Shown here in pieces: positions 1-35,442 of a stretch of 35,442 bases of DNA. Both the position numbers and the translations under genes were made by a program. The stretch lies in IMG/VR virus record IMGVR_UViG_3300044610_000369, positions 1 through 35,442 of that record. One strand, 5' to 3'. The first letter of the stretch is position 1; every line of letters starts with the position of its first letter. This DNA comes from a virus. Under the pieces are notes generated by a model. It saw only the letters and a list, made by a program, of their open reading frames with translations, was not told where the DNA came from and ran no database searches.

Positions 1-161
1 AGGTTCTTCTTTATCAATTATCATAATCATTTAGCCTCCTTGATACTACCTTTCATCGCTTCACAAGATGCAAACGCTTCAATACGATTCAGGCATTCGC
101 CCTCAATATCTTCTTTCGCATTGCCCGTTTTTATTGCTTCCAATAAAGTCCGATGATCGCT
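1..161. repeat. Terminal redundancy, left copy (circular join)
   Basis: Positions 1-161 repeat at 35282-35442. The only differences seen are three adjacent bases, TTT at 128-130 here and CCC at 35409-35411. This indicates a closed circular or circularly permuted genome of about 35,281 bp, linearised arbitrarily inside a minus-strand gene pair. It is too imperfect to be called a defined packaged end. Confidence 0.9.
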
Positions 162-263
162 AATAGACTCCCACCTCATGCTTATGCCTTTACTGCTATC
201 GCAATGGTGCATTTTATTGAGTAAAAATTGCCCGCATGGATGCTGTGTTACAAAATATTTCAC
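27..263 (-). CDS. Hypothetical protein, antisense island gene 2
   Basis: This is a 78-aa protein of unknown function. Its GTG start overlaps the TGA stop of the 55-aa gene at 260-427 (GTGA). Its stop overlaps the start of the third island gene, which begins at position 30 (equivalent to 35311). Four cysteine or histidine residues lie near the N-terminus (HPC, HHC), but no known metal site is recognised. The tight overlaps show one minus-strand operon, opposite to the surrounding virion genes. A 5'-truncated copy occupies 35308-35442 and would change Lys-Thr to Arg-Ala at the variant bases. Confidence 0.7.
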   Translation of the reverse strand: MKYFVTQHPCGQFLLNKMHHCDSSKGISMRWESISDHRTLLEAIKTGNAKEDIEGECLNRIEAFASCEAMKGSIKEAK

Positions 264-427
264 TTCTCCACCCCATTTTTTAGCCGTCTAATTACTTGAT
301 TCAACCATTCAGACTCGTTTTTAGAGCCTGAAAGTTTTACATTTTTTAATACAAATTCCCAGTTTTCTTTGTGAATTACGCAAATCATTGCTGTTTTCAG
401 CTTTTCACTTGTTTTTGGTTTAGGCAT
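260..427 (-). CDS. Small ribbon-helix-helix-like protein (tentative), island gene 1
   Basis: This 55-aa ORF reads ATG at 427 to TGA at 260. A short lysine-rich N-terminus leads to a possible beta strand (residues 13-19, AMICVIH), then two predicted helices separated by a GSKNESEW turn. That order resembles Arc/MetJ ribbon-helix-helix repressors, and Arc is also about 53 aa. The similarity is by pattern only. It is the first gene of the minus-strand island and overlaps the next gene by GTGA. Just upstream lie two 12-bp direct repeats spaced 20 bp apart, which could be its operator. There is no obvious Shine-Dalgarno sequence. Confidence 0.5.
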   Translation of the reverse strand: MPKPKTSEKLKTAMICVIHKENWEFVLKNVKLSGSKNESEWLNQVIRRLKNGVEK

Positions 428-438
428 TTGTTTATTTG

Positions 439-467
439 AATCTACTGCACTCTATTACATTTTACAA
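439..467 (-). promoter_or_regulatory. Candidate promoter for the antisense island
   Basis: Read on the minus strand, TTGTAA (467-462) and TAGATT (444-439) are separated by 17 bases, each matching the sigma70 consensus at four of six positions. The predicted start would lie only a few bases before the ATG at 427, so the message would be nearly leaderless. One direct-repeat copy lies in the spacer. Confidence 0.3.
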
Positions 468-479
468 CACTCTATAACA
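448..479. repeat. Paired 12-bp direct repeats, candidate operator
   Basis: CACTCTATTACA (448-459) and CACTCTATAACA (468-479) match at 11 of 12 positions and are offset by exactly 20 bp, about two helical turns. They lie in the divergent gap between the 55-aa gene and the plus-strand gene at 526. Such phasing suits cooperative repressor dimers. The GCACTCTA string also occurs in the P22 Arc operator as I recall it, which may be chance. Confidence 0.45.
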
Positions 480-525
480 CTGATTCAAGCCAGAAAAACA
501 GCCATTAATAAGTCATTATTAGATT

Positions 526-819
526 ATGACAACTGCGCAAAGCCAAAATTCAGACCTAGAACTTTTAAAGTTAAAAGCTAAGAATATTGACCTAGTGCAA
601 ATAGAGCCAATTCTTGAATACGCTGCTAGCCAAATAGAAGTTGAGATACGAAAATTGCGGGCTAATCTGTCTAAAATTTCAGATGTTTCTCTGAGACACG
701 AATATTTAGCCAGAATTGACAGCTTACAAGTCGTTAAATCTAAATTTTCTTTAAGCGAATTAGCTCAACAGATCGGGAAGCTCGAAAACCAAGAGGAACA
801 ACAACTAAATGTCTATTGA
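526..819 (+). CDS. Hypothetical helical protein upstream of the scaffold
   Basis: This is a 97-aa, mostly helical, charged protein with heptad-like stretches (about residues 28-85) that could form a coiled coil. I do not recognise a family. It is the first plus-strand gene after the antisense island and overlaps the scaffold-like gene by 11 bases, so the two are probably translated together. Position suggests a head-assembly role, but this is inference. No good Shine-Dalgarno is visible before the ATG. Confidence 0.7.
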   Translation: MTTAQSQNSDLELLKLKAKNIDLVQIEPILEYAASQIEVEIRKLRANLSKISDVSLRHEYLARIDSLQVVKSKFSLSELAQQIGKLENQEEQQLNVY

Positions 820-1495
820 TGACACTTCATATTTTGATAGCTCAAATGAGTCCTATCAAGATGATTATCAAACAACTGAACCGACAATTGAACAGCTCAG
901 CGGAGTTATTCAATCTCTACAAAGCAAATTAAGCAGTTTAGAGGCTAATCCACTTGCAGGTTTGGGTTACCAGCCAATTCAACAGCCCAGCTCGCAGTAC
1001 GATCCAACTTCACTAAAAGAAGCTCAAGAATTTCTCAAAGCCCAAGGGGTGATGACAAAAGATTCTTATACTGAGATGGTGGCTAGTGAAACTCGTGAAG
1101 AAGCGGCAATTAATAATGGCTTCCAGAATTCTCAGCATTTAGCGGCAAATTTTTGGGGTGAATATTATTCAGCTAATAATCCACAAACCAAAGCCGAACT
1201 AGAGAGTTTATTGAATCTATATGAGTCTGGTAGTAGAGTTAATATTCAAAAAGCTGTACAAGGATTCAAGTCATTCAGTGAGCGAAAACAGCAAAATTCT
1301 CAGCCTTTGCAGAGTCAGACATTTGGAAGAGTTCCTCAACAACAAAACACTCAATCACAATCTGCAGGCGGTTGGCCATTTGGAAAAACTGGTGGTGCTC
1401 AGGAATACAATTCTTGGAAGCGTACCGCCGACCCTCAAATGGTGAGACAACTTGAACAGAAGTGGATGAGTGGACAAATACCCGATCCGTTTTAA
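809..1495 (+). CDS. Scaffolding protein (putative)
   Basis: The 228-aa product has an acidic N-terminus rich in D, E, S and Y, a short predicted coiled coil (about residues 28-48), a long Gln/Ser-rich disordered stretch, and a conserved-looking C-terminal helix ending in a QKWMSGQIPDPF-type tail. Low sequence complexity, acidity and position directly before the capsid gene are the usual marks of podovirus scaffolds such as T7 gp9 and P22 gp8. It overlaps the preceding gene by 11 bases. The assignment rests on composition and context, not on a diagnostic motif. Confidence 0.65.
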   Translation: MSIDDTSYFDSSNESYQDDYQTTEPTIEQLSGVIQSLQSKLSSLEANPLAGLGYQPIQQPSSQYDPTSLKEAQEFLKAQGVMTKDSYTEMVASETREEAAINNGFQNSQHLAANFWGEYYSANNPQTKAELESLLNLYESGSRVNIQKAVQGFKSFSERKQQNSQPLQSQTFGRVPQQQNTQSQSAGGWPFGKTGGAQEYNSWKRTADPQMVRQLEQKWMSGQIPDPF

Positions 1496-6327: not shown

Positions 6328-7448
6328 GTCTAGGTCAAGGACTTGGGCAAGGCTTAATGCTTGTTGCTCAAAATGTTGCTCAAAATAGAAGAGCTAATCA
6401 AGCACAAAAACGCCAGCTTGAAATGTTTAATTTGAAAAGAGTGGCGGATATTGAGGATTTCCAAAAGATGGAGGAATTGAAAGATAATTTAACTTCAAAA
6501 AAAAGACAAAGAAATTTAGATTTATTGACTGCAAAATATGGAAATAATAATGCAATTCCTCAAACCAATGCAGCTATTCCTAGTTCAGAGCCAATAAGTG
6601 AAAATGGTGCTGTTCCGTTACCGATACCTATGCCAAGCTCACCAGTTCAAGAACAAGCAAATCCAGCTCAACCACAAGTTGCCCCTGCAATGTTTAATGA
6701 TAAAGCTTGGCAACAACAGCATTTTGAGGATTATTACGATGATGAAACAGGCGCATTTGACAAAAAAGGGTTTAGGAAGGGACTGGAAGACGCCCAAAAA
6801 GAAAATGCTACTTTGCAATATTTAAGAGCAAACAATTTAGATGTGCCCGAAGGTGTGAACTTAGGAACTTTAAGCCCTTTTATTGGCAGTATGCTTGGAG
6901 AGAAAAAAGAAACTAAAAAACTTGAATATAAAACGCAAGGTAACAAAATCGCTCAAAAAATACTCACTGATCCAGGTTATAGAACTGGCAAAAAACAACT
7001 TACTGATTCTGAATTGGAGGCTTTGGCAAAAGGTGGAATTAATATTGATAGTTTGTATAGATCAGATGGCAGTTTAGATGTAGCAAATGCTACTGAAGCC
7101 GCTAGAATCATAGCTACAAATATGAAACCTCAACAAATAGCCGTTTCTTTAAGACCTCCTAAAGTTGGTCGTGGTGGTGGTGGTCGAGGTCGTAGCGGTG
7201 GAGCTTCTGGCGGTGGAACTTCTGGCGGTGGAGCTTCTGGATATAAACAAACAAGAGATGGTAATTTTGTAAAGGTCGATAAAAGGGGTAATCCTGCTGG
7301 ACAAATAATCAGTGCTAAGGATGCTTACAATATGGGAATTACAAATACCGCTCCGCAAAGAAGACCAAGAGCAGTCCAAGGTGGAGGCGGTGGCGGAACA
7401 GCCGAGCTGATCAGGCAACAACTTAATTCTATTAAAGGGTTTGATTAA
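6324..7448 (+). CDS. Ala/Gln- and Gly-rich candidate ejection protein
   Basis: The 374-aa protein starts with a GQGLGQGL motif and a helix rich in Gln, Asn and Arg, followed by a Pro-rich linker (about residues 78-125), a DDETGAFDKKGF acidic segment and a Gly/Ser/Arg-rich stretch (about residues 280-306) encoded by three 15-bp repeats. Its place between the S74 protein and the giant protein parallels T7 gp14-16 and P22 gp7/20/16. The stop shares one base with the next start (TAATG). Function is by position only. Confidence 0.6.
   Translation: MSLGQGLGQGLMLVAQNVAQNRRANQAQKRQLEMFNLKRVADIEDFQKMEELKDNLTSKKRQRNLDLLTAKYGNNNAIPQTNAAIPSSEPISENGAVPLPIPMPSSPVQEQANPAQPQVAPAMFNDKAWQQQHFEDYYDDETGAFDKKGFRKGLEDAQKENATLQYLRANNLDVPEGVNLGTLSPFIGSMLGEKKETKKLEYKTQGNKIAQKILTDPGYRTGKKQLTDSELEALAKGGINIDSLYRSDGSLDVANATEAARIIATNMKPQQIAVSLRPPKVGRGGGGRGRSGGASGGGTSGGGASGYKQTRDGNFVKVDKRGNPAGQIISAKDAYNMGITNTAPQRRPRAVQGGGGGGTAELIRQQLNSIKGFD
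7194..7238 (+). repeat. Three tandem 15-bp repeats (Gly/Ser linker)
   Basis: Units at 7194-7208, 7209-7223 and 7224-7238 follow GGCGGTGGA(G/A)CTTCT with one or two differences each. They encode repeated SGGAS / SGGTS pentapeptides in a flexible linker. Copy number is likely to vary between relatives. Confidence 0.8.
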
Positions 7449-10400
7449 TGGCTAACTTATTTGCAGGTTTATTAAAGCAAGCTCAGCCCGCAATAAATGC
7501 AGGTAACAATGTTTTGCAAGATTTGGGAATACTTAGACCACAATCTGTTAATTTGAATGATATTAAACGAGTAGCTCAACTTAAAGCTGATTACGCTACA
7601 AAAGAATTACCAAAGCAAGTTGAAAAATATAAAAAAACTACTGATTTAACTTTTCAGAATATTAATAAAATATTGGACAATGCTGATGATATTTCAGAAA
7701 GTGAAAAAGAAAATTTAAGAAAACTTGCACAACAAAAGCAAAAAAGTTTATTGCAAGCCACTCAAGCTAAGGCTGTTCAAAAACAGGATTTGGCTTTAAC
7801 TGGAGTTGCCCCCGAAAAAATTAATCAGTTTGGAGTTAAAAAAGCTCAAATTGATATTAAAAAGCAAGTTGGTCAACCTTTAAATACACAAGAACAAACA
7901 ATTGATACTTTCTCTAATCCGATCATCTCTTACGGTGCTGGCTTGATTGAGAAAACCGCTCAATTTGGTAAAGATTTAAATACTGGTTTAGACTCGGTCA
8001 TGTCTTATCAAGATCAGGCTATTAGGTCTGTTCCTATTATAGGGCAAGGAATCAAAGCTTTAGACAATTTAAAAATCAATCAAATAAATCAAGATTTAAG
8101 TAAGGATATTTCAGCAGGCAAAAGAGTTGATTTATTAAAAAGAAAAAGCCAACTAGAAGCTACCCCAGAAATTCAAAGACAAGCTATCAAAGCTGATTAC
8201 CAAAACCCTAATTTTATTAAAAACGCTCAAAATAAAATTTTAGGAAGCAAAGAATTAGCGGAAGGTATGAGACAGCAAGGCGGTTACAAAGTCGGAGAAT
8301 TTGCGGGTGAAATTTTACCATTTCTAGGGGGTGGTGAAGTTACGGGAGCGGCTAAATTAGCGACTGGTGCAACTAAACAATTAATGAAGACTGGCATTGG
8401 CAAAGCAGTAGCAAAATATGGCGGGAAGGAAACAGCTGAAGTTTTAACTAAAGGAGTTATTGAAAACGCTATCTTGGAGCAAGTACCAGGCTTAATTCAA
8501 GAAGGGGCAAAAGTAGCAGGTGGTGAACAAACTTTCGGACAGGCAGTTCAAAATCAACTAGGAAGAACAGCTTTAGCGGCTGGTTTGGGTGGAGTGGCTG
8601 ATTTAGGAATACACAACGTAGGGAAAGCTTTAAAACCAACTTTTGATAAATTAGGAAGAGCTAAAAAATTTAAAGAGGTAACAGCCCAAAGGCAAGCGGT
8701 ACAAGGTGAAAGGCAAGCTAGAGATGCTGATAGTGTTGTGCCACCTAACCGCAATCAAGTGGTTTTAGATTTAAAAGATAAGTTGGCTGACAAAAGAATG
8801 TCCATTGATGACCATTTAGCTGAGGTTGGTGGAGAAAAACTACTTTTAAGCGAGCGAAGCCAAAAACGAGTTGCAAAATTAGAAAAAGAAGCTAATGAGA
8901 TTGAACTAGCTATACGGAAGTATGAAGGCACAGAACAAACTAATTTAAAGGGTTTAAACGCAAAACAAAAAGCGCAAGCATTAGCGGATCAAATTAAGGC
9001 TAATCAACAAACCAAAACCCCACTGGACGCACAAGCTACACCACCAAACAAGATAGACGATTTAATACCTTTTGACCTTAGCAATGTAAAAGAGGGGAAA
9101 AAGCTTAAACAAGAGCTTAAACAAGACATTAAAAACAGACCTAAAAAGGGAAGCCCCGAAGCATTGATTGAAGAAGCAATAAAACAAAACAAGGCTTTCA
9201 ATGCACAATTTAATGATACCCTCACAAATCAAGCACCTTCTTTACAGCCTCAAAATAAGGCAATTTCTGAGATACCCAAGGTTGAAGGATTAAAAGGAAG
9301 TGGTAAACAAATAGATGAGGATTTAAGTACACAAGAAGGAAAAATTGCATATGGTAGAAGAGTCTATAAAACTGAATTAGATGATATGCAAAATAGGCTA
9401 AATAAAGCGAAAAAAGAATCAGAAAAGTATACAGATTCTACTAAATGGGGAGAGATTAAAAAAATACAAAAAAAATATGAAGAACAAGGACTAAGCGGAC
9501 AAGAAGCATTTGAAAAAGCTCAAGACGATTATTATGATTTAAGTTATAAGGCAAATCAAAAATATAAAGATTTATACAAAGAAGCCGATAACCTTCAGGA
9601 TAGGCTAACAAAAAAAATAGAAGAAGTACCTAAACCTAAACCAGTTAAGACTGAGGATGTTAAGAAAAGCTTTTTAGATAAATATACAAAACTATCAAAA
9701 AAAGAAAAGCAAATTGCAATAAAACAAGATGATAAAACTTTTCTTGATTCTATTCAGAAAAGGTTAGACTACGAAAAATCAGAAAAGATAAAACTACAAA
9801 ATAATAAGCTCTCTGTTAGGAATTTTTTAACAAAAGAAATAGGGGAAACTCCGTCATTTGAACAAGCTAGAGATTATATCAATAACTCTTTTGAGGGAAA
9901 AAAACAATTCAATCTTCTTGGAGCTTTAGATGAAGAAGAATTGCTTACAACTAAAATAACAAGAACAATAGATGAATTAAATAATTTAAAGACACAAATT
10001 GAAGCTAAAAAGGAAGCGGAGTTTTCAAAATCCACACCAGAGCCACAAGGCTTAAAGGCCACTAAAAACCCAACTATCGAGGAATCCCAGACAGTTCCAA
10101 AGTTAGGCACAAAAAAAGTAATTAATCCAGATGGAACTGAACGAATTGCCCGTACTCTTGGAGACTATAAAGCAGTTGAGTTTCAGGAAATTGCTAGACA
10201 GCCAGATAAATTAAATAAACTCAGCGATATAAGCGAAGCGGTGAGTAAAACAGACGAAGAGGCGATTGATGTAATAGCTGATTTAGCGAAAGAAAAGAAA
10301 ACTTTTGAAAATACTTTAGTGGATTTATCCGAAGCTTTAGAAATTAAATTAAAACAAAAAGGAATAGACCCTGAAACCTACAGCTATAAAGGGATTCAGC

Positions 10401-13400
10401 TTTTTCCAACTAAAGGAAAAGACAGTTTAAGTTTAAATACCAAAGGCCAAAAAATATTAAATCGATATGAAAGAATGCTTGATAGGCTCGGTCTTGGTGA
10501 AAGAGTTGCAAAATCAGATGTTAATAGTTTAAGCGTGCAAACCAATATTGGTAAAGCGTCTAATGCCAAAGTAGGGGCGCAAAACTCAATAGATGATTTA
10601 GCTGAGCAGTGGATTAAAACCAAAGGCGATTTATTAAAATCTGATAAACAGTTTAAGACCGCTAAAGATGTTTTTATGGCTAAAACTGGCTCCAAACTAG
10701 ATAATGGTGGACTTGATCATGTTTGGAAAAATGAAAAAGGGGATACGGCTTTTCATATTTCAAGAGCTAAATCTGAATTTAAAGGGGAAGCCCAAGAGCT
10801 TTTAACCGCTAGGAGAGAACAATTAAAACAAAGACAAGATACAGGGCGCACCATTAAAGGCAAAATGGAAACCAAATTAAAAGATGCTGAAACTGGAAAA
10901 GCCATAACAGCGGCAAGCAAAAAATTTAAAACGGTTTATCAAGAACTTCAAGAGCGTTTAGAAAATAAAACCGCTGAAAATTTAGCCACCGAAAGAAGCC
11001 CAAATTTAACCAATAACACCAATCAAGCCACTGAATTTTTACTTAAAGATGCAAGCGAAAACAAAGCGTTAGATACTGACCTAATCGACGAAGCCACCAC
11101 CAACACCAAAAAATTAAATAAACAATTTGCTTTTAACCCCGCTGCTATCCCTGTAATTGGTGTTATTGCTAAGAAAATTATCGAAGGTAATGGTTTTGCT
11201 GACACTTTGGAATTAGCCTTAAATATATTGCCAATTAATAAAGCTTTTGACAAATTAACCAAAAACGCAAAATTGGCAAACATGAAAACAGCCGCTTTGG
11301 AATTGGTTTTTAATACTCCAAAAACAATTGACCAAAATATTTTAAGTGTAAAAAGACAGGCTAATCAAAAATTTATTGATGGTTTTAACAAGCTAGAAGC
11401 TCGCAAAATGCTTTATGAAACCAAATTGGCTGATAAAAGTGAAGATGTTTATAAAGAAATTCAGGATATTTTAAACAATAAAAATGTTGATGAAATATTA
11501 GACGCTGAAGGTAATATTAGGCCAGAATTTGAAAATAGCAAAGCCGCTGAAGCCTTAGCCGAATTGGCTGACCGTAATCGGGAAATGGTGGAATATGCCG
11601 AAGATTTTAAAGATGATTTGGTTGAAAAAATAAATAGTTTTAATACCAAAATTGATAAATTAGAAAATCAACCCAAAACGGCCAGCGTTAAAAGAGCGAT
11701 TGAAGAGTTAAAAAATGAAAAGTTTGATTTAGAAAAAACATTAATCGCAGTAGACAATAAAATCGGAGCATTAAAAACTATTACAGGTAATGGCTTATTC
11801 CAAAACATTCAATCCATGGCTTATAAAGGGGCTTTACTTTGGAATCCAGGTAGCGCATTCCTAAACCTATTTGATTATATAAATGTTCGCTCAGCCCCTG
11901 AATTACAAGCCAGTAAAGGTTTAGGCCGCTTGGCTAATGCAATTCCTTTTTTTGGCGACGTGGATAAAGCTTTATACCAAACGCTTGGGCAAAAATTACA
12001 ATCTAATAAAAATAGTCTTTTGCATTTTATGACCGCTGATAAAAGGGGTAGTTATTACAATGTCATGAGTAATGCTAGTCAGTCTCGCAAAGCTGGAAAA
12101 AATGTTGGTGAGTGGTTAAAAAATAGTTGGCAAAAAATAGAAGATTTAGACCCTAATAAATTAATAGCTCATTTTTATCATGATGTAACGGTGGTGGCCT
12201 CGGCTCGGTCGTGGAAAGCTGAACACCCAGAATTTAAAAATTTACCTGACCCTGTAACTAATTTTAGAGCTTTTAGAGACAAGGCTCCCAAAGAAGTAGT
12301 GCTTAGCTTTATGACTAAGATGAATATTGATTTAGGCTTAATAGCTGGCCGTGGCTCTAAAGGTGCTGATTTTGCATTAGGTGGTTTGGGTAACACCGAA
12401 CTTGGCAAAGCTTTCACCCCGTTTTTAAAACCAGTTTACCGAATATCAAACAGCTTACAAAGAGCCTCGACTGATATGTTGGACGGCTTAAACGGCTTTA
12501 AGAAGTTGGATAATGGTACTTATCAATTTGACATAAATAAAGTGGACTCAGACAAGGCTTTAAAAGGCATATCTAGTTTAATTGCTAATATCGGTGGAAC
12601 TTATTTAGTTGGCGGAAGTACGGCTTTAGTTGGCTTGCCAGCGGCTGGAATGGCTATGAATTTTTTGGTTAGAAATTTTGTACCAGAGGAAGAAAGAGAA
12701 GATTTTAAAGATAAATTTAACCAAGCCAGTTTAGCCAACAAAAAGCTTTTACCAGGTTTTGGTGAACGACTCCAAATACAACAAAGAGGTTTTGGCGAAA
12801 AAGATAGCATTGTGGGAATGCTGACTAATAGGTTTAAAACATTAGGGCAGCCGCTTTTGGCTAGTTATATCCAAGACATAGGCAAAGTAACAAATATGAC
12901 CTTTGAAGCTTTTAAAGGAGAGGAAGAAGTTGATAAAGAAAAATTATTAAAAGTTTGGTTAAAAGTTTTGCCAACGGGCCAGTTATTTAATAAGGTTAAT
13001 GCTTACTTAAACGAGCAAGAGAAGAAAGTTTATGACTTAGATGGTGCTTTCCCGAAAGAAATCGGCTCTGTCAAAACAAAAGGTGATTTGCGCTTAGTTG
13101 TTGGTGGTGGTAATGAAGAAATTGAAAATATCAAACAAAGCGATCGGTTAAAACAAAGAGCTAAAAGTAATATCCAGAATTTAAACTTTACAGGCCGCCC
13201 TGGTTATGTTACACCGAAATTTACCACCGAAGGATTAAAACGCTTCAGGGCTGATATTGACCGCTACATGAAGCTAAACCCAACTGCTGACCGTAATGAG
13301 GTGGAATCTAAATTGATAGCCCAAGCTAAAAAGAAATGGCTTGATAAGCACCCTGAGCTTAAGAAACCAACTAAGCAAAAGAAATATAAATCACTCGTTT

Positions 13401-13420
13401 ACTCAATGGAGGAAGAATAA
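7448..13420 (+). CDS. Giant internal / ejection protein (1990 aa)
   Basis: The single 1990-aa frame covers about one sixth of the genome. It is mostly helical and Lys/Gln/Asn-rich, with long coiled-coil regions (about residues 620-850 and 1290-1430). Hydrophobic stretches occur near residues 1227-1240 (PAAIPVIGVIAKKI) and 1705-1735 (a Gly/Ala-rich segment), which could insert in a membrane. Size and position after two ejection-type genes match the largest internal virion protein of podoviruses (T7 gp16 is 1318 aa). No lytic transglycosylase E-S motif is visible at the N-terminus, unlike T7 gp16. Confidence 0.7.
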   Translation: MANLFAGLLKQAQPAINAGNNVLQDLGILRPQSVNLNDIKRVAQLKADYATKELPKQVEKYKKTTDLTFQNINKILDNADDISESEKENLRKLAQQKQKSLLQATQAKAVQKQDLALTGVAPEKINQFGVKKAQIDIKKQVGQPLNTQEQTIDTFSNPIISYGAGLIEKTAQFGKDLNTGLDSVMSYQDQAIRSVPIIGQGIKALDNLKINQINQDLSKDISAGKRVDLLKRKSQLEATPEIQRQAIKADYQNPNFIKNAQNKILGSKELAEGMRQQGGYKVGEFAGEILPFLGGGEVTGAAKLATGATKQLMKTGIGKAVAKYGGKETAEVLTKGVIENAILEQVPGLIQEGAKVAGGEQTFGQAVQNQLGRTALAAGLGGVADLGIHNVGKALKPTFDKLGRAKKFKEVTAQRQAVQGERQARDADSVVPPNRNQVVLDLKDKLADKRMSIDDHLAEVGGEKLLLSERSQKRVAKLEKEANEIELAIRKYEGTEQTNLKGLNAKQKAQALADQIKANQQTKTPLDAQATPPNKIDDLIPFDLSNVKEGKKLKQELKQDIKNRPKKGSPEALIEEAIKQNKAFNAQFNDTLTNQAPSLQPQNKAISEIPKVEGLKGSGKQIDEDLSTQEGKIAYGRRVYKTELDDMQNRLNKAKKESEKYTDSTKWGEIKKIQKKYEEQGLSGQEAFEKAQDDYYDLSYKANQKYKDLYKEADNLQDRLTKKIEEVPKPKPVKTEDVKKSFLDKYTKLSKKEKQIAIKQDDKTFLDSIQKRLDYEKSEKIKLQNNKLSVRNFLTKEIGETPSFEQARDYINNSFEGKKQFNLLGALDEEELLTTKITRTIDELNNLKTQIEAKKEAEFSKSTPEPQGLKATKNPTIEESQTVPKLGTKKVINPDGTERIARTLGDYKAVEFQEIARQPDKLNKLSDISEAVSKTDEEAIDVIADLAKEKKTFENTLVDLSEALEIKLKQKGIDPETYSYKGIQLFPTKGKDSLSLNTKGQKILNRYERMLDRLGLGERVAKSDVNSLSVQTNIGKASNAKVGAQNSIDDLAEQWIKTKGDLLKSDKQFKTAKDVFMAKTGSKLDNGGLDHVWKNEKGDTAFHISRAKSEFKGEAQELLTARREQLKQRQDTGRTIKGKMETKLKDAETGKAITAASKKFKTVYQELQERLENKTAENLATERSPNLTNNTNQATEFLLKDASENKALDTDLIDEATTNTKKLNKQFAFNPAAIPVIGVIAKKIIEGNGFADTLELALNILPINKAFDKLTKNAKLANMKTAALELVFNTPKTIDQNILSVKRQANQKFIDGFNKLEARKMLYETKLADKSEDVYKEIQDILNNKNVDEILDAEGNIRPEFENSKAAEALAELADRNREMVEYAEDFKDDLVEKINSFNTKIDKLENQPKTASVKRAIEELKNEKFDLEKTLIAVDNKIGALKTITGNGLFQNIQSMAYKGALLWNPGSAFLNLFDYINVRSAPELQASKGLGRLANAIPFFGDVDKALYQTLGQKLQSNKNSLLHFMTADKRGSYYNVMSNASQSRKAGKNVGEWLKNSWQKIEDLDPNKLIAHFYHDVTVVASARSWKAEHPEFKNLPDPVTNFRAFRDKAPKEVVLSFMTKMNIDLGLIAGRGSKGADFALGGLGNTELGKAFTPFLKPVYRISNSLQRASTDMLDGLNGFKKLDNGTYQFDINKVDSDKALKGISSLIANIGGTYLVGGSTALVGLPAAGMAMNFLVRNFVPEEEREDFKDKFNQASLANKKLLPGFGERLQIQQRGFGEKDSIVGMLTNRFKTLGQPLLASYIQDIGKVTNMTFEAFKGEEEVDKEKLLKVWLKVLPTGQLFNKVNAYLNEQEKKVYDLDGAFPKEIGSVKTKGDLRLVVGGGNEEIENIKQSDRLKQRAKSNIQNLNFTGRPGYVTPKFTTEGLKRFRADIDRYMKLNPTADRNEVESKLIAQAKKKWLDKHPELKKPTKQKKYKSLVYSMEEE

Positions 13421-22224: not shown

Positions 22225-22764
22225 TTAGTTTTCAATCAAAGCTTCAAATTCTTCTAATGGACTTGCGATTGAAGTTTTCAAATTATCAAATTCTAAAAAC
22301 AAAGCTTCCAAAAGCTCATCAGAACAACGAGGATTATTTTTATCAACTAATTCAGTATTTACTATAAAAAAGGTATTTCCTGTTTTTTTGGAAGTGATTT
22401 TTTCAAAAGAAAGTTTTAAATTTAAGCCTAGTTCGTTCTCTTCATCAATGATTGTAATTTTTTCAATAAATTCCACAAATCGCCTTTCAGAACTGGAATG
22501 CAACCACATTTCACTTAAAACATTTTTTGCATCTAAAAACTTTAAACAAACCCAGTCTTTAGGCTCTTCTTGACCAAATTTGACTGACTGAGCTTCAATT
22601 TTGTGAGAAATTAAATTAATTTCTAAAGTGTTGTTTAAAAGCTCTTCTTTTTGCTTAAAAAGCCCGAGTTTACAGTCTGCACGGTATTCAAAAGGAACTG
22701 TTAATTTTTTAATTTTAATTTTTGAAATTGAAATTTCTTGATTTTTAATTGCTAATTTTGACAT
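22225..22764 (-). CDS. Hypothetical protein, last gene of the minus-strand cassette
   Basis: A 179-aa protein of beta/alpha character, acidic near the C-terminus, with no signal peptide or recognised motif. There is no Shine-Dalgarno before its ATG. Instead an AT-rich leader with two TTTTAGGA-type repeats and two hairpins lies upstream. The gene ends next to an intrinsic terminator. It belongs to the cassette facing against the plus-strand genes. Confidence 0.7.
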   Translation of the reverse strand: MSKLAIKNQEISISKIKIKKLTVPFEYRADCKLGLFKQKEELLNNTLEINLISHKIEAQSVKFGQEEPKDWVCLKFLDAKNVLSEMWLHSSSERRFVEFIEKITIIDEENELGLNLKLSFEKITSKKTGNTFFIVNTELVDKNNPRCSDELLEALFLEFDNLKTSIASPLEEFEALIEN

Positions 22765-22796
22765 TTTAAAATTTTAGGATTTTAGGATTTTAATTA

Positions 22797-22838
22797 GGGC
22801 TATTTGATAAGCCCCTGCCAATGGCTGGATTAGAGCCA
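22797..22838 (-). promoter_or_regulatory. Two hairpins in the leader of the 179-aa gene
   Basis: GGGCT (22797-22801) pairs with AGCCC (22810-22814), and TGGCT (22822-22826) pairs with AGCCA (22834-22838). They lie between the lysozyme-like gene's end and the 179-aa gene's start. Neither is followed by a U-tract on the minus strand, so they are more likely message-stability or processing elements than terminators. Confidence 0.4.
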
Positions 22839-22853
22839 CTGATAGGGAATTAT

Positions 22854-23570
22854 TTATACGCTTTTAACCTCGCTAAATGAACTAGAAATTATTTTGTATT
22901 TTGGCGTTGCAAGCCTATCGCTCATATATCTTTTGCCAACCTGCGAACATCTGACAGCTCTAAAATCCCGTTGAATAAATGTTTTAAGGCTTATCTCTTC
23001 ATTTTCAAAGAAATAGCAATTGCGTATTAATTCAGCATATCTAATTAAACCCGCTTCAAATGAGGAATTAAAGCTATTAAATTCATTGTGAGCGACTGGT
23101 TTATAGTCGCCACCGTCTGTATTTCCTACATTGAAAATATTTTTAGTTTTAACCGCCCGCCCACGAGTGCCAAAATGACTTTCAATCTTTGCAGCAGTGA
23201 GTAAAAAATCAAGTGGAAAGTTTAGTTCTTGGCTTAATTCAATCCATCTGACAGCGGGAATAGGTGAGTTTTTAACAATCTTTTTAACCTTATTTATTAA
23301 ATATGGGCTAATTGGCTTTTTTTTAGCTGACAGTTTTTGCCTTGCTTGTCTTTCACGAATTAAAACCTTTTGAGTATATTTTAATTTTTTTTCAACTAAA
23401 GCTTTTTCTGATTTTAAAAGTTCCAGTTCTGCTTTAGATGAAGCCAATTCAGAAACAAAACTTATTTCTTCATGTGGAATTTTAAGCGGTTTTGAATAAT
23501 TTAAAATTGAAGCGTAAGCAAAAGACCCACTTAGAGCTAAGCCTAGAATTGGCATTATGTAATTCTTCAT
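22854..23570 (-). CDS. Membrane-anchored lysozyme-superfamily enzyme (Bax/GH73-like)
   Basis: The 238-aa protein has an N-terminal membrane or signal-anchor segment (about residues 5-22), a coiled coil (about 40-80) and a C-terminal domain with LTAAKIESHFGTRGRA, then KNIFNVGNTD. This is the 'A.ES.wG.S......NLFG' pattern of Bax-like and GH73 glucosaminidase domains, with Glu130 as the candidate catalytic acid. It should face the periplasm or wall. It overlaps the upstream gene by ATGA. It may serve entry, lysis or wall remodelling. Confidence 0.7.
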   Translation of the reverse strand: MKNYIMPILGLALSGSFAYASILNYSKPLKIPHEEISFVSELASSKAELELLKSEKALVEKKLKYTQKVLIRERQARQKLSAKKKPISPYLINKVKKIVKNSPIPAVRWIELSQELNFPLDFLLTAAKIESHFGTRGRAVKTKNIFNVGNTDGGDYKPVAHNEFNSFNSSFEAGLIRYAELIRNCYFFENEEISLKTFIQRDFRAVRCSQVGKRYMSDRLATPKYKIISSSFSEVKSV

Positions 23571-23962
23571 TGTTTGAGTACCCCGTCAATACAAATAAAA
23601 CCAAATTGTAAGGCTGGATTGTCATTTTTTAAAAACTTCAAAATCTTATCAAGTTCCAAAAAATCTGCTTGCGTGTCTAAATAGGTATATTTAATTATTA
23701 TTGATTCAATTTCGCCTAATGGGTTTTGATAGCGGTCTAATTTGGTTGGTACTGGTAAACTTACAAAGCTTATCATGCCGTCTATTTGCACTGCGATCCG
23801 CTCTTCAGCGACATTTAAAACATTTTCCATTTTTACGCCATTCTCTGAAAAATAAACTTTGGCGGTCGGAATTATCCTGTGATAAACAAAGTTGTTAAAA
23901 TCTATGACATTTTTAAGAACTTCTTGCTCGAACTTATCGTAAAATTTAATATTAATAAGCAT
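23567..23962 (-). CDS. Hypothetical protein (131 aa)
   Basis: A 131-aa protein of mixed alpha/beta pattern with no recognised motif. AAGGAG lies upstream of the ATG at a good distance. It overlaps the lysozyme-like gene by ATGA, suggesting coupled expression and a possible shared role. Confidence 0.7.
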   Translation of the reverse strand: MLINIKFYDKFEQEVLKNVIDFNNFVYHRIIPTAKVYFSENGVKMENVLNVAEERIAVQIDGMISFVSLPVPTKLDRYQNPLGEIESIIIKYTYLDTQADFLELDKILKFLKNDNPALQFGFICIDGVLKQ

Positions 23963-23983
23963 TAGTTTGTCTCCTTTTTAAAA

Positions 23984-24286
23984 TTAATAATAAAAAACAT
24001 CGCCAATATAATATCCAGTTGGTGGTTCTGGATTTCTAGCTGAAACTAGCTTTTTAATTTCTTCTTTAGTCGCTTTTGTAAAGAAAAAACTATTGTGATT
24101 ACCTTTAATCGTGACTGAATAAAAACCATTGTCTAAATTCATTAAGCTAATAGAGACCCGATCGCCATGTTCACAAACTAGATTCCCGTTCCAGTCTAAT
24201 AAATCACCTAAAGCATAAACATTAAATGTTTTGGTTTCTGGTTTAATTTTAGCTTGTAAGTCTTGTTTAATTAATGTATTGTTCAT
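23984..24286 (-). CDS. Hypothetical protein, first gene of the minus-strand cassette
   Basis: A 100-aa protein with beta-type segments (VCEHGDRVSISLMNL, FYSVTIKGNHNSFFF) and a short acidic helix. No family recognised. No Shine-Dalgarno is visible before the ATG. It is the first gene read from the promoter at 24587-24558, about 265 bases downstream of the predicted start, so it has a long leader with a 13-bp hairpin. Confidence 0.65.
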   Translation of the reverse strand: MNNTLIKQDLQAKIKPETKTFNVYALGDLLDWNGNLVCEHGDRVSISLMNLDNGFYSVTIKGNHNSFFFTKATKEEIKKLVSARNPEPPTGYYIGDVFYY

Positions 24287-24416
24287 TTTGTTTTAGTGGT
24301 TAAGTAGTTTCTTAGTGCGATAAATGGTATTATTTTCCTTGTAAACAAAAGTTAAAATTTTAAAAAGGAGTAAACCTCGCTTATTTGTTTAGTTTTTATT
24401 TTTTTTAGATTATTGC

Positions 24417-24456
24417 AAATTAGCCGAGTTTTCTTAGCGGAACACTCGGCTAATTT
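24417..24456. promoter_or_regulatory. 13-bp perfect hairpin in the minus-strand leader
   Basis: AAATTAGCCGAGT (24417-24429) pairs fully with ACTCGGCTAATTT (24444-24456) around a 14-base loop. On the minus strand it lies in the leader of the 100-aa gene with no U-tract after it. On the plus strand a weak T tract follows (GTTGGTGTGTTTTT). It may be an attenuator, an antisense terminator or a dyad bound by a regulator. Confidence 0.6.
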
Positions 24457-24505
24457 GTTGGTGTGTTTTTAAGTTCAGGGAAATTGTTTTAAGTTTATTT
24501 ATTTT

Positions 24506-24536
24506 CTGATTTATACGCTATCAACTGTCAAATCAG
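24506..24536. promoter_or_regulatory. Interrupted inverted repeat, candidate operator
   Basis: CTGATTT (24506-24512) and AAATCAG (24530-24536) are inverted around 17 bases. They lie just downstream of the minus promoter's predicted start, where a bound regulator would block transcription. Inferred from position and symmetry only. Confidence 0.4.
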
Positions 24537-24557
24537 TTATTTATTTAACTTACTAAT

Positions 24558-24587
24558 ATTGTACCCATATTTGTTTAGTTTTGTCAA
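24558..24587 (-). promoter_or_regulatory. Sigma70-like promoter for the minus-strand cassette
   Basis: On the minus strand a perfect TTGACA (24587-24582) and TACAAT (24563-24558) are separated by 18 bases. This is one of the two clearest promoters in the genome. It would drive the 24286-22225 cassette and lies 21 bases past the end of the HTH gene. Confidence 0.65.
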
Positions 24588-24607
24588 ATAATCTTAAGTA
24601 ATATTGT

Positions 24608-24868
24608 TTAATTCTTTTTAAGTTTATTATCAAACTTTAATTTCATTTTTTCTTTGAAATCATTTACATCTGATTCTTGATAATAAACTCTATTTCCCGC
24701 CATATCAAATTTTTGTCCTTTGAGTATGCCTTTTTCTTCCCACCTAGCCACGGTATAAAGTTCAACTGGAGTATTTAGTTCTTGACTAAGCAACTTAGCA
24801 ACTTCGGCTCTGGTTAAATAACCTTTAGGTCTGAAAGTTGGGGTCGTGTCGTGTTTTGGGGTTTCCAT
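24608..24868 (-). CDS. MerR/excisionase-type helix-turn-helix regulator
   Basis: The 86-aa protein has YLTRAEVAKLLSQEL, then a YTVARWEEKGIL recognition-helix segment, a short wing (FDMAGNRVYYQESDV) and a basic tail. That is the winged HTH of MerR-like and excisionase-like proteins. It diverges from the antirepressor gene across 95 bases and is followed by promoter and repeat elements. It is the best candidate for the phage repressor or a transcriptional switch. With no integrase present, an excisionase role is unlikely. Confidence 0.7.
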   Translation of the reverse strand: METPKHDTTPTFRPKGYLTRAEVAKLLSQELNTPVELYTVARWEEKGILKGQKFDMAGNRVYYQESDVNDFKEKMKLKFDNKLKKN

Positions 24869-24897
24869 GAATAATAATTTTGAAAGGGTTACTTTAT

Positions 24898-24903
24898 ATT
24901 ATA
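24898..24903 (-). promoter_or_regulatory. Candidate -10 for the HTH gene
   Basis: TATAAT on the minus strand lies about 30 bases before the HTH gene's ATG. No good -35 was found at 16-18 bases, so this is tentative. Confidence 0.3.
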
Positions 24904-24927
24904 CAAGAAAACATTTAAAAAGAGTCG

Positions 24928-24933
24928 TATAAT
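24928..24933 (+). promoter_or_regulatory. Candidate -10 for the antirepressor gene
   Basis: TATAAT lies 30 bases before the ATG at 24964, back to back with the minus-strand TATAAT at 24898-24903. The -35 is weak, which would suit a regulated promoter. Confidence 0.35.
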
Positions 24934-24963
24934 TAAGAGTATGCACAAATAAATAAAATAAGA

Positions 24964-25689
24964 ATGGAATTAACAATAATCAAGATTGAAAACAAAAATA
25001 ATCAGCAATTAGTTGGTGCGAGAGAATTGCACAACTATTTAGAGAATAAACGCCAATTCACTGATTGGATAAAGCAAAGAATAGACCAGTACGATTTCAT
25101 TGAAAACACTGACTACATCGTTACACAAATTTGTGAAACCTTCCAGAGCTTAAACCCAACGACAGAATATTACTTAACTTTAGACTGTGCTAAACAGCTT
25201 GCAATGGTTGAAAACAATGAGAAAGGTAAATCAGCTAGATTGTATTTTATTGAAGCAGAGAGAAAATACAAAGAATCTTTAGTTAAACCAAAAGAATTAA
25301 CTATTTTAGAAATTTTGGAAATAGCGACTCAGTCCGAAAAAGAAAGGCTGAGATTGCAAGCTGAAAATGAGGAAATGAAACCAAAAGCTGAATATTTTGA
25401 TGCTTTAGTGGATAGAAATTTACTAACCAATTTTAGAGATACTGCTAAAGAATTTGGAATGAAAGAATCAGATTTTATTAAATTCATGCTTGAAAAGAAA
25501 TTTATCTACAGAGATGGCAAAGGAAATTTAAAAGCCTACGCAAGCACAATAGAAAAGGGCTTGATGGAATATAAAGAATTTACTAATAAATACAATGGAA
25601 AAGCGGGCGTTCAAACTTTAATCACTCCCAAAGGGCGAGAAACATTCAGACTGTTAATTTCCAAAGACAATTTTAAATTTGAGGAATAA
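24964..25689 (+). CDS. Phage antirepressor (AntA/AntB plus KilA-C domain)
   Basis: The 241-aa protein begins with the AntA/AntB domain (about residues 10-90): VGARELHNYLENKRQFTDWI, then YDFIENTDYI and a YYLTLDCAKQLAMVE core. From about residue 125 it has the KilA-C/ANT domain, with NFRDTAKEFGMKESDFIKFMLEKKF, IYRDGKG and TPKGRETFRLL. Both are standard parts of phage antirepressors that inactivate or displace repressors. It faces away from the HTH gene and is followed by the replication leader. The ribosome binding site is weak. Confidence 0.85.
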   Translation: MELTIIKIENKNNQQLVGARELHNYLENKRQFTDWIKQRIDQYDFIENTDYIVTQICETFQSLNPTTEYYLTLDCAKQLAMVENNEKGKSARLYFIEAERKYKESLVKPKELTILEILEIATQSEKERLRLQAENEEMKPKAEYFDALVDRNLLTNFRDTAKEFGMKESDFIKFMLEKKFIYRDGKGNLKAYASTIEKGLMEYKEFTNKYNGKAGVQTLITPKGRETFRLLISKDNFKFEE

Positions 25690-32359: not shown

Positions 32360-32914
32360 GTGAAAACATTCAATAAAATAAAAGTCAAAATATTACTATT
32401 TATAGACAAAATTTTATATTATTTATTTAAACGCAATAAACACAAATCATTAGTATACAAACAAATTATAAGTGACATACCTCATGCTGAAATAGCCTCA
32501 ATTCAAAGGGCTAGCGATGGTTTAGAGTATGGGGGAAATAGTAGTGAAGTAATAAACAAGATGAAAGCTTTACGGAAGCAATATCCATTAGTAGAAGTTT
32601 ATTTGCCAACTTATTATAATGATAAAAGAAGGCAAAACTATTTCAAAAACAAACCAACTTACAATATTTTTAGCATAAGAAGTTCTGATTTTAAAAAAGA
32701 CTTGGAATTTTTCAAAGAATTTTTTGCGGAAAATGGTTTTTATCCTACAGCTATGCCTCCACTTAGCACTCACATTTGGGACGATGAAACGGAAACTGAT
32801 ATAATCTTGAATAAAGATGAATTCTATAAACCTGTTGCCCGAAAAGTTGATATGAACTGGCTCGGACAGAGAGAGAGTAAAAAAACTGAAGAAATGAGTT
32901 TACAATTAAGTTAA
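32360..32914 (+). CDS. Hypothetical protein between terminase and portal
   Basis: A 184-aa protein from a GTG start 12 bases after the terL stop; no other in-frame start fits the gap. The first 30 residues are basic and hydrophobic (VKILLFIDKILYYLF), perhaps a membrane-contacting helix. The rest is mixed. The location between packaging motor and portal suggests a late function, but no family is recognised. Confidence 0.65.
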   Translation: MKTFNKIKVKILLFIDKILYYLFKRNKHKSLVYKQIISDIPHAEIASIQRASDGLEYGGNSSEVINKMKALRKQYPLVEVYLPTYYNDKRRQNYFKNKPTYNIFSIRSSDFKKDLEFFKEFFAENGFYPTAMPPLSTHIWDDETETDIILNKDEFYKPVARKVDMNWLGQRESKKTEEMSLQLS

Positions 32915-32918
32915 TAAA

Positions 32919-35069
32919 ATGGAAACAATATTAGATATTCAGCAAACTATTGACCCAGCCGCAATTAAAGAAGCGGTCATGAAATATGATAAACGTTTAG
33001 AACAGAATAAATCTATTCGCCAGCCACTTGAAAGAGAATGGACTGATTATATTTCAATGGCTATCAAAGGTGAAGAAGGTTCAAGAGTCATGAATTTGGC
33101 TAAGCAATATGTAAACCTGTCTAATAGCTTCTATCCTAGCTCATGGAGACAAGCAAGCGCATATAGGCTTCAATGGCTAACTAAAGATGGGGACTGGTTT
33201 GATTTAGCTCCCAGCGGTGAACAAAACACAAATACAACTTTAGTCAATGCTGTAAAAAGTAAGATGAGAAAATCTTTAAACCACCCAGAAAGCGGCTTTT
33301 ATAATGCATTAGATAACTTTGATTTGCAATGCAGTTTATTGAACACGAGCGGTTTGGCTTATTCATATATTGTCAAAACTGAAAAGAAAAGAGCCAAAAC
33401 TATTGAGATGGAAGGCGGGAAGATAAGAATTAAGCGGAATGATGGTGAAAATGAATTAGTTTATCAGGGTGCTAAAGCCACTGTCATTAATATGTTTAAC
33501 TGCTATCCAGATATGCTTAGCCCTATAAACAATGATATTAATGCGGTAGATTTATATTTTTGGGAAGCGATATCACTGAATGATTTAAAATCAAATCCAG
33601 ATTTTGACCCAGCCGCTCCTTACACTTATCAAGATTTTGTTATTTATAGAGATAATTCAGAGCTAGTAAAACTGGAACAGTCTACTTTAAGCAAAACAGA
33701 CTCACAAAGAAGAATTGAACAAGCCACCCAGCCAGGCATTAGGCAAAATGAGGAAGGATATAAAGGTTATTGCGAGCTGAGAACTGCCTACTTAAAAGAG
33801 TTTTGTGTGAAAAGTGGAAGTAGCAAAGAAACTTACGAAAATGTAATTGTTCTTTACGCAAAAGTTTTAAATGAAGTAATTCCATTATTAGTTGAATATA
33901 ATCACAATCCATATAATCGTAAAAATATTTTATTGTGTGAAGCTCAAACTAATCCATGGGGAATGTATGGCAAATCTCAATTAGGCTTAAGTTACAATCA
34001 AGCGTGCTGGTTAAACTATTTAAGAGCTTGTCAAGCTTATTCGGTCGGTAAAACTACATTTAGAACTCGCTTTATTCCATCAAATTTGTATACCGCCGCC
34101 ATGGAAACAGGAATTGCTAAGCATGATTTAGAGAATGCCTTGCGTGGTGCTGGTTATGATATTCCTTTCAATGCAGAATCTTATTCACAAGGTGCGGACG
34201 GTATTTGGTCGCCCGATGACAAATATCAAACGAGTGATATTCAGCTCATGGATGGTGAAATACAGAAAACACTCAATCAATTACAAGAAATAAATGTTGA
34301 TTTATCGTCTGATTCAGTCGTAAGTGGAACGGCTACTGGCGTAGATTTTGTCCAGCAAAAACAAACAGCGGTTTATAAAAAATACTTAAGGAATATGTCT
34401 CAAAGTGTCTTGCAACCGTTTTTAGAAATGTTTTTAGAAGACTTATTATTATTAATCAGAGATGAATTGATTGAAGTTAATATTGATGACGAGCGATTGA
34501 AACAAATAAACCCAAGCATTGAACATTTAGTTAATATTTTTAAAAGTTTAAATGAGCCACTGACTCAACAACAAGAAGTTGGAACTGATGCCAATGGCTT
34601 GCCTATCGTGATGGGAAGTCAGATTAATCCTGTTGCAAAGAAAGAATATATTATTCTCACTCAAAGATTATTAGCCGCTTTTAAGGCGGACATTGAAATT
34701 AAAGTTGAAGGTAATGTCTACGACGTAGAAGAGCGAAAACGGGCTAATTTAGAATTACTTAATTTTATCCAGCAAACCTTTGCAAATCAGCCAGAGGGCT
34801 TAAAGATGGGAGCTATTGCAATGGAGGAATATTTGGATTTACATCAAAACGAAAACAAAGCTAAATATATGGAAATTATAGAATCTTTGGGACAGGGACA
34901 AGAACAAAAACAAGCAATTGAAGCTCAACAAGCTCAAGACAACGCTAAAATGGCAGACGCGAAAGCTCAGAAAGACATGGCTCAAACTCAAGTTATGTCA
35001 GCCAATGCGGCTAAAACTACCCAAGAAGTTCAAGATAATGAACAAGCTAAGCAATTATTAGGAGTTTAA
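32919..35069 (+). CDS. Portal protein (P22-size class)
   Basis: The 716-aa product has a helical N-terminus, a wing and stem region (YSVGKTTFRTRFIPSN, then DKYQTSDIQLMDGEIQKTLNQLQEINVDL), and a Gln/Ala-rich coiled C-terminus (about 650-716). The latter resembles the long barrel of P22 gp1 (725 aa). It follows the terminase genes and precedes the head-assembly genes. Its TAA shares TTAA (35066-35069) with the stop of the converging minus-strand gene. Confidence 0.8.
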   Translation: METILDIQQTIDPAAIKEAVMKYDKRLEQNKSIRQPLEREWTDYISMAIKGEEGSRVMNLAKQYVNLSNSFYPSSWRQASAYRLQWLTKDGDWFDLAPSGEQNTNTTLVNAVKSKMRKSLNHPESGFYNALDNFDLQCSLLNTSGLAYSYIVKTEKKRAKTIEMEGGKIRIKRNDGENELVYQGAKATVINMFNCYPDMLSPINNDINAVDLYFWEAISLNDLKSNPDFDPAAPYTYQDFVIYRDNSELVKLEQSTLSKTDSQRRIEQATQPGIRQNEEGYKGYCELRTAYLKEFCVKSGSSKETYENVIVLYAKVLNEVIPLLVEYNHNPYNRKNILLCEAQTNPWGMYGKSQLGLSYNQACWLNYLRACQAYSVGKTTFRTRFIPSNLYTAAMETGIAKHDLENALRGAGYDIPFNAESYSQGADGIWSPDDKYQTSDIQLMDGEIQKTLNQLQEINVDLSSDSVVSGTATGVDFVQQKQTAVYKKYLRNMSQSVLQPFLEMFLEDLLLLIRDELIEVNIDDERLKQINPSIEHLVNIFKSLNEPLTQQQEVGTDANGLPIVMGSQINPVAKKEYIILTQRLLAAFKADIEIKVEGNVYDVEERKRANLELLNFIQQTFANQPEGLKMGAIAMEEYLDLHQNENKAKYMEIIESLGQGQEQKQAIEAQQAQDNAKMADAKAQKDMAQTQVMSANAAKTTQEVQDNEQAKQLLGV

Positions 35070-35311
35070 TCCACCCAACCTTTTAAAAAATTATAATCAG
35101 ATTTAGTTTTTAAACGCTTGACAGTAAGTAAGTAACTCCTGTGAGCCTTCTCGTCTTCGCAGCTTCTCAAAGTAGATAATAAAATCATTATTAATTGTTG
35201 ATAAATGTCCACTTTTTTCTCAAGATTTGCAGCTTCAGCCAAAACTTCCAAAAGTTTGCTCTTAACCTTTTCCGCAAAACTAGGTTCTTCTTTATCAATT
35301 ATCATAATCAT
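35066..35311 (-). CDS. Hypothetical protein, antisense island gene 3
   Basis: An 81-aa helical protein reading from ATG at 35311 (equivalent to position 30 on the circle) to a TAA at 35066. The start overlaps the stop of the 78-aa island gene (ATGA). A leucine-rich helix (KLLEVLAEAANLEKKVDIYQQL) could form a coiled coil. It ends tail-to-tail with the portal, sharing a TTAA for both stops. A 30-base 5' fragment of the same gene lies at positions 1-30. Function unknown. Confidence 0.65.
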   Translation of the reverse strand: MIMIIDKEEPSFAEKVKSKLLEVLAEAANLEKKVDIYQQLIMILLSTLRSCEDEKAHRSYLLTVKRLKTKSDYNFLKGWVD

Positions 35312-35442
35312 TTAGCCTCCTTGATACTACCTTTCATCGCTTCACAAGATGCAAACGCTTCAATACGATTCAGGCATTCGCCCTCAATATCTTCTTTCGC
35401 ATTGCCCGCCCTTATTGCTTCCAATAAAGTCCGATGATCGCT
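35282..35442. repeat. Terminal redundancy, right copy
   Basis: Matches 1-161 except for three adjacent bases (35409-35411). It carries the start of the 81-aa gene and a 5'-truncated copy of the 78-aa gene (35308-35442), which is not a separate gene. Confidence 0.9.

Follow-up and report, generated by a model that had tools for sequence, protein, structure and literature searches.

Three overlapping minus-strand genes were found between the portal and scaffold genes of this virus, at a slot that is conserved in its two known relatives and whose gene content changes among them. Purifying selection acts on the first and last of these genes, and repeats are present in the gap upstream of the first one. 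The island is best explained as an accessory "moron" cassette with its own transcription and, probably, self-repression, resembling the immI region ("ant moron") of phage P22, but located between portal and scaffold, and we give this reading a probability of roughly 60%. Swappable accessory cassettes are known, best from P22; the portal/scaffold position and the orphan proteins encoded by the island are new.

Organization of the island on the circular record

The window, that is, the whole stretch of DNA analysed (35,442 nt; IMG/VR record IMGVR_UViG_3300044610_000369), is a circular record with a 35281-bp unit, because a 161-bp terminal repeat (bases 1-161 recurring at 35282-35442) joins its two ends. 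The two copies of the repeat differ at three adjacent bases, TTT at 128-130 and CCC at 35409-35411, which is either a strain polymorphism or an assembly artefact. In the 78-aa island protein the difference converts K45-T46 to R-A (K45R/T46A).

On the circle, three overlapping minus-strand ORFs of 55, 78 and 81 aa occupy the 643 nt that separate a 716-aa gene from the 97-aa and scaffold genes, as given in a preliminary description of this DNA (427-260, 263-27 and 35311-35066). The same description had placed the island at positions 1-525 between portal and scaffold; the location was right, and the island reaches past that range to 35066. No Pfam or PHROG match was obtained for the 716-aa protein, and its gene was taken as the portal gene because it is placed between the terminase and capsid genes. 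The features are listed below, with identities to the related genomes L002 and L003.

32919-35069, plus strand: upstream flank, 716-aa protein read as portal, between terminase and major capsid protein (MCP) genes; 92% identity to L002
35066-35311, minus strand: last island gene, 81 aa, ATG start, predicted all-helical with four helices; 79% identity to an 80-aa protein of L002
35312-35321, minus strand: junction motif AGGAGGCTAA (RBS plus upstream gene end), also at 31-40 via the terminal repeat; single site in the 35281-bp unit
27-263, minus strand: second island gene, 78 aa, GTG start, wrapping the record end (equal to 35308-35442 plus 162-263); orphan
260-427, minus strand: first island gene, 55 aa, ATG start, basic (+6), candidate RHH-type autorepressor; 96% amino acid identity to L002
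428-525, no strand: 98-bp divergent regulatory gap separating the first island gene from the 97-aa gene; 88.7% identical to the L002 gap
448-477, no strand: candidate operator, three phased decamers CACTCTATTA / CATTTTACAA / CACTCTATAA
459-488, minus strand: promoter-like site TTGAAT-18-TAAAAT
526-819, plus strand: downstream flank, 97-aa gene, kept in all three genomes (99% and 63% identity)
809-1495, plus strand: probable scaffold gene, by position
1513-2433, after the scaffold gene: MCP gene, PHROG major head protein matches at 8.7e-12 and 8.5e-11

Adjacent island genes overlap at their stop and start codons: the end of the 55-aa gene falls within the GTG start of the 78-aa gene (GTGA), and that of the 78-aa gene within the ATG start of the 81-aa gene (ATGA, with AGGAGG just before it). 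The last island stop was described earlier as common with the portal stop. This was true of the window, where TTAA at 35066-35069 contains both (portal stop, 35067-35069), and was not kept in L002, where the two stops are merely adjacent.

The island reading frames are genes

Minus-strand ORFs of at least 50 aa covered 100% of the 643-nt island, compared to a mean of 11% and a maximum of 87% in 5000 dinucleotide shuffles, none of which reached 90%. A codon score was derived from the large genes of the window genome; for every island gene in the window and in both relatives, it was highest in the annotated frame. Against L002, dN and dS were 0.015 and 0.348 for the 55-aa gene (dN/dS ~0.04) and 0.120 and 0.415 for the 81-aa gene (dN/dS ~0.29), compared to 0.048 and 0.553 for the portal gene. 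The values against L002 indicate purifying selection on both of these island genes. Coding support for the 78-aa gene was limited to the codon score and the two-codon K45R/T46A polymorphism in the terminal repeat.

The preliminary description had raised the possibility that the DNA is conserved without its reading frames; the dN/dS values against L002 show that the conserved thing is the protein. Chance antisense ORFs, kept only since the underlying DNA is kept, would be consistent with short island proteins that have no database relatives. This explanation does not agree with the shuffles (0/5000 tiled the region), with dN/dS values of 0.04 and 0.29, with the choice of the annotated frame of every gene by the codon scores, or with the same arrangement of other genes in the relatives. 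The results for the 55- and 81-aa genes already refute it for those two, and its likelihood for the island as a whole is negligible.

A conserved slot with changing gene content

When the portal, MCP, terminase, 97-aa and island proteins were used as queries against 2.9 million viral contigs, the only relatives recovered were L002, with a portal 92% identical, and L003, with a capsid protein 80% identical, and the comparison set comprised three genomes, two of which (L002 and L003) are fragments. An additional contig match (L015) was rejected as a coiled-coil coincidence in an SbcC-like protein. No portal or capsid relatives were found in public phage records, in which the terminase gave only a 25% partial match, in Flavobacterium phages. 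Bacterial-genome scans revealed no prophage relatives, and tblastn searches with five island proteins against phage records and with one against plasmids gave no match.

The flanking genes (portal on one side, 97-aa, scaffold and MCP genes on the other) were syntenic in all three genomes. Minus-strand genes were present in the portal-to-97-aa slot in 3/3 genomes, the island consisting of three genes in the window, six in L002 and two, plus one on the other strand, in L003. The six L002 genes encode proteins of 61, 55, 99, 129, 116 and 80 aa; the 55-aa protein was 96% identical to the first island protein of the window and the 80-aa protein 79% identical to the last. Between the window and L002, the island ends persist, the middle changes, and one gene is added in front in L002. 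In L003, the slot contained a minus-strand 54-aa basic first gene and a 77-aa gene, the product of which was 52% identical to the L002 129-aa protein, together with a plus-strand membrane-protein gene assigned to DUF3307 (PF11750; PHROG moron family phrog_2470 at 8e-19). This membrane moron was absent from the window. No counterpart of the window 78-aa gene was found in L002 or L003; its kinship to the family of the L002 129-aa and L003 77-aa proteins was considered and was unsupported. No other convincing minus-strand genes were found in the late block of the three genomes.

Comparison of the portal-scaffold gap in relatives, which had been proposed as a check, thus revealed a minus-strand island with different content in both L002 and L003. 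A single insertion point in a syntenic operon with content differing between relatives, the mark of a moron, was found across the three genomes, and the earlier suggestion of a cassette is borne out by this same slot with other genes.

The junction motif AGGAGGCTAA occurred once in the window and in two exact copies in L002. All of these copies lie at island junctions, and the three genomes contain no others. Homologous recombination at short boundary sequences of this sort has been proposed as one way in which genes are exchanged (PMC3029335), and the AGGAGGCTAA junctions may be such swap points. In L003, the DUF3307 gene lies directly after the portal gene and is flanked by a 19-bp portal-end duplication, AACAATTATTAGGAGTTTA (220-238 and 615-637), the second copy of which is apparently a trace of its insertion.

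The divergent gap contains repeats over a promoter-like site

The 98-bp gap remained 88.7% identical between the window and L002, though the first island gene differs there. The "paired repeats" reported earlier in this gap were confirmed as the three phased decamers at 448-477 (motif copies at 447, 457 and 467), a period-10 array that was equalled in 1/2000 shuffles. In L002 the array was recognisable in the alignment, weaker and not significant by itself. The promoter-like site of the window scored 9/12 in a consensus scan, and its -10 element falls within the second decamer; the number of promoter-like sites in the region was not above chance, and the scan did not find this site in L002. 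The L003 gap contained a perfect 8+8 palindrome, GTATACTG-N8-CAGTATAC; the extended -10 element of a promoter-like site falls within one arm, and 18/1000 shuffles contained a comparable 8-bp inverted repeat. A TTGAATC/GATTCAA inverted repeat flanking the decamers was rejected, a comparable pair occurring in 250/1000 shuffles (wider spacer range); both of its arms are changed in L002.

The presence of different repeats over a promoter-like site, together with a small basic first protein (+6 in the window and +7 in L003), suggests self-repression of the island by its first protein, with the repeats as candidate operators. Because the island is oriented opposite to the late transcript, it is probably expressed independently, by transcription of its own. 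No terminator was seen between the island and the portal gene, so that a minus-strand transcript would enter the portal gene antisense and late transcripts would cross the island. Searches of the window for structured RNAs and tRNAs were negative.

In the mechanism we propose, the accessory cassette would sit at the fixed portal/scaffold slot and be transcribed, in the direction opposite to the late transcripts, from a promoter of its own within the conserved gap. The product of the first gene, a small and basic protein that probably belongs to the RHH type, would bind DNA at the repeats over the promoter and repress its own operon. The downstream small proteins would provide exchangeable accessory functions, most likely host- or defence-directed, and the accessory genes would be swapped one at a time at similar RBS/stop junctions.

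Family and fold of the island proteins

Except for the L003 DUF3307 protein, the island proteins gave no credible family match in Pfam, PHROGs, NCBIfam or PADLOC; weak matches to Adeno_52K, COX6A, Dmd, Csm2 and Cas1_IIIa were judged to be chance. The 55-aa protein had no credible match in Pfam, PHROGs, NCBIfam or PDB sequences. Neither the Arc profile (PF03869) nor the RHH_1 profile (PF01402, also negative by hmmscan) matched in the genome at E<=10, and hhalign against P22 Arc and Mnt was negative (prob 0.3). In a control, P22 Arc and Mnt matched many PHROGs; the island gave no Arc-like PHROG match. A monomer model of the 55-aa protein, built from 2 sequences, had a low pLDDT of 61 with three helices and no strand; RHH strands form only in dimers, which makes this monomer a weak test of the fold. 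Every profile test of the "Arc-like" label given to this protein in the preliminary description failed, and the label goes back to the residue pattern.

That pattern (MICVIHKENWEFVLKNVKLSGSKNESEWLNQVIRRLK) reads like strand-helix-turn-helix and would suit a ribbon-helix-helix (RHH) protein. The L003 first protein (YKLNISIDKELIEKVKLAQDILKAKNCNRVVNDLLRRGL) appears to fit such a pattern better than the 55-aa protein, and it gave a weak PHROG "transcriptional repressor" match (E 0.078). The 81-aa protein was predicted to be all-helical by AlphaFold2 (pLDDT 73). Fold searches with the 55- and 81-aa models gave no match at E<=0.001. Structure prediction, as had been suggested, gave a low-confidence model of the first protein and an all-helical model of the last one, both without a fold match. 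The highest 19-residue Kyte-Doolittle mean among the window island proteins was 0.80, compared to 2.60 for P22 SieA, and no membrane segment was detected by hydropathy in the minus-strand island proteins.

Comparison with known systems and alternative functions

The P22 immI region ("ant moron") consists of mnt, arc, ant, sieA and orf59a, between genes 16 and 9. Like the island, it is a variable accessory island inside the late block, with gene content that differs between relatives (PMC2629481; PMC8022706). The layout is also similar, with a minus-strand unit opened by a small regulator, a divergent gap of ~90 bp and repeats over the promoter; in P22, the gap is 90 bp long and contains the operators of both Arc and Mnt, and mnt is the first gene of the minus-strand unit that starts from it. 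In contrast, the slot is portal/scaffold here and gene 16/tailspike in P22, where the portal-scaffold interval is 13 bp with nothing between. The window island also lacks an antirepressor, SieA, sar RNA and terminators, its first protein is not detectably an Arc/Mnt homologue, and no integrase was found in the genome. The lambda nin region likewise has packed small non-essential genes with ATGA overlaps (PMC8022706), but these are co-directional with the early operon whereas the island is antisense inside the late block. The RHH protein MobC represses its own operon via a palindrome in its promoter (PMC4175270). MobC-type operons, with a small first-gene repressor and a palindrome over its own promoter, resemble the L003 layout (PMC4175270); they carry plasmid transfer genes, and the likeness is one of layout, not sequence.

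The immI/sieA comparison also allows an immunity or superinfection-exclusion locus, as proposed earlier. Its position and layout are of the same kind, and the genome encodes an AntA/KilAC antirepressor. However, this antirepressor lies elsewhere (24964-25689). The genome yielded no tyrosine integrase, serine recombinase or ParA-type protein, which lowers the likelihood of immunity; membrane exclusion is made less likely by the hydropathy of the minus-strand proteins, which marks them as soluble, unlike SieA. With no positive evidence for either exclusion or immunity, such a locus is decidedly unlikely. A toxin-antitoxin cassette was another early suggestion. Such a pair, in which a DNA-binding antitoxin precedes its toxin, is very improbable: the small first gene with an RHH-like pattern, the translational coupling and the repeats in a promoter-like region would suit it, but no toxin or antitoxin family was matched in Pfam, NCBIfam, PHROGs or PADLOC. 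Moreover, the first gene is 96% conserved in L002 while the 78-aa gene lacks a counterpart in both relatives, which is not the pattern in which a toxin/antitoxin pair evolves. No positive evidence was found for this type of cassette.

Portal protein is present in few copies per virion, and scaffold and capsid proteins in hundreds. The island could act as a gene-dosage device in which antisense transcription or a bound repressor hinders late RNA polymerase and sets the portal:scaffold/capsid ratio, the proteins mattering little. Its location exactly at the portal/scaffold boundary in 3/3 genomes agrees with this, as does the junction at which it abuts the portal stop with no terminator seen. 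A possible effect of the P22 island on read-through into the tailspike gene has been described (PMC2629481), and by analogy a portal/scaffold island could affect the portal:coat ratio; the device was kept as a rival for this reason. It is unlikely, because the reading frames are under protein-level selection, the content ranges from 2 to 6 genes, beyond the needs of an interference device, and the P22 portal and scaffold genes lie side by side without any such element. It is highly doubtful that a repressor-controlled antisense promoter both runs an exchangeable anti-defence cassette and throttles late transcription, setting portal:coat stoichiometry.

As an accessory cassette, the island occupies a head-gene point where P22 has only 13 bp, in a lineage with almost no database relatives, and its proteins are orphan candidates for host- or defence-directed functions. 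If its antisense promoter affects late read-through, the locus would provide a simple system for opposing transcription between low-copy and high-copy virion genes, in which phage tolerance or use of such transcription could be studied.

Other regions of the genome

The AntA/KilAC antirepressor gene lies beside a divergent HTH_17 gene (24608-25689 together), outside the island, in a genome in which no integrase, resolvase or ParA was detected. At 22225-24868 lies another minus-strand cluster, longer than the island, which includes a weak glucosaminidase-like 238-aa protein and had no match in the two partial relatives. The 1990-aa protein encoded at 7448-13420 was strongly variable, corresponding to two ORFs of 1553 and 797 aa in the L002 record and to 2682 aa in the L003 record. 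A second variable slot was found at 32360-32914, where a 184-aa gene between the terminase and portal genes is replaced by a 127-aa ORF in L002.
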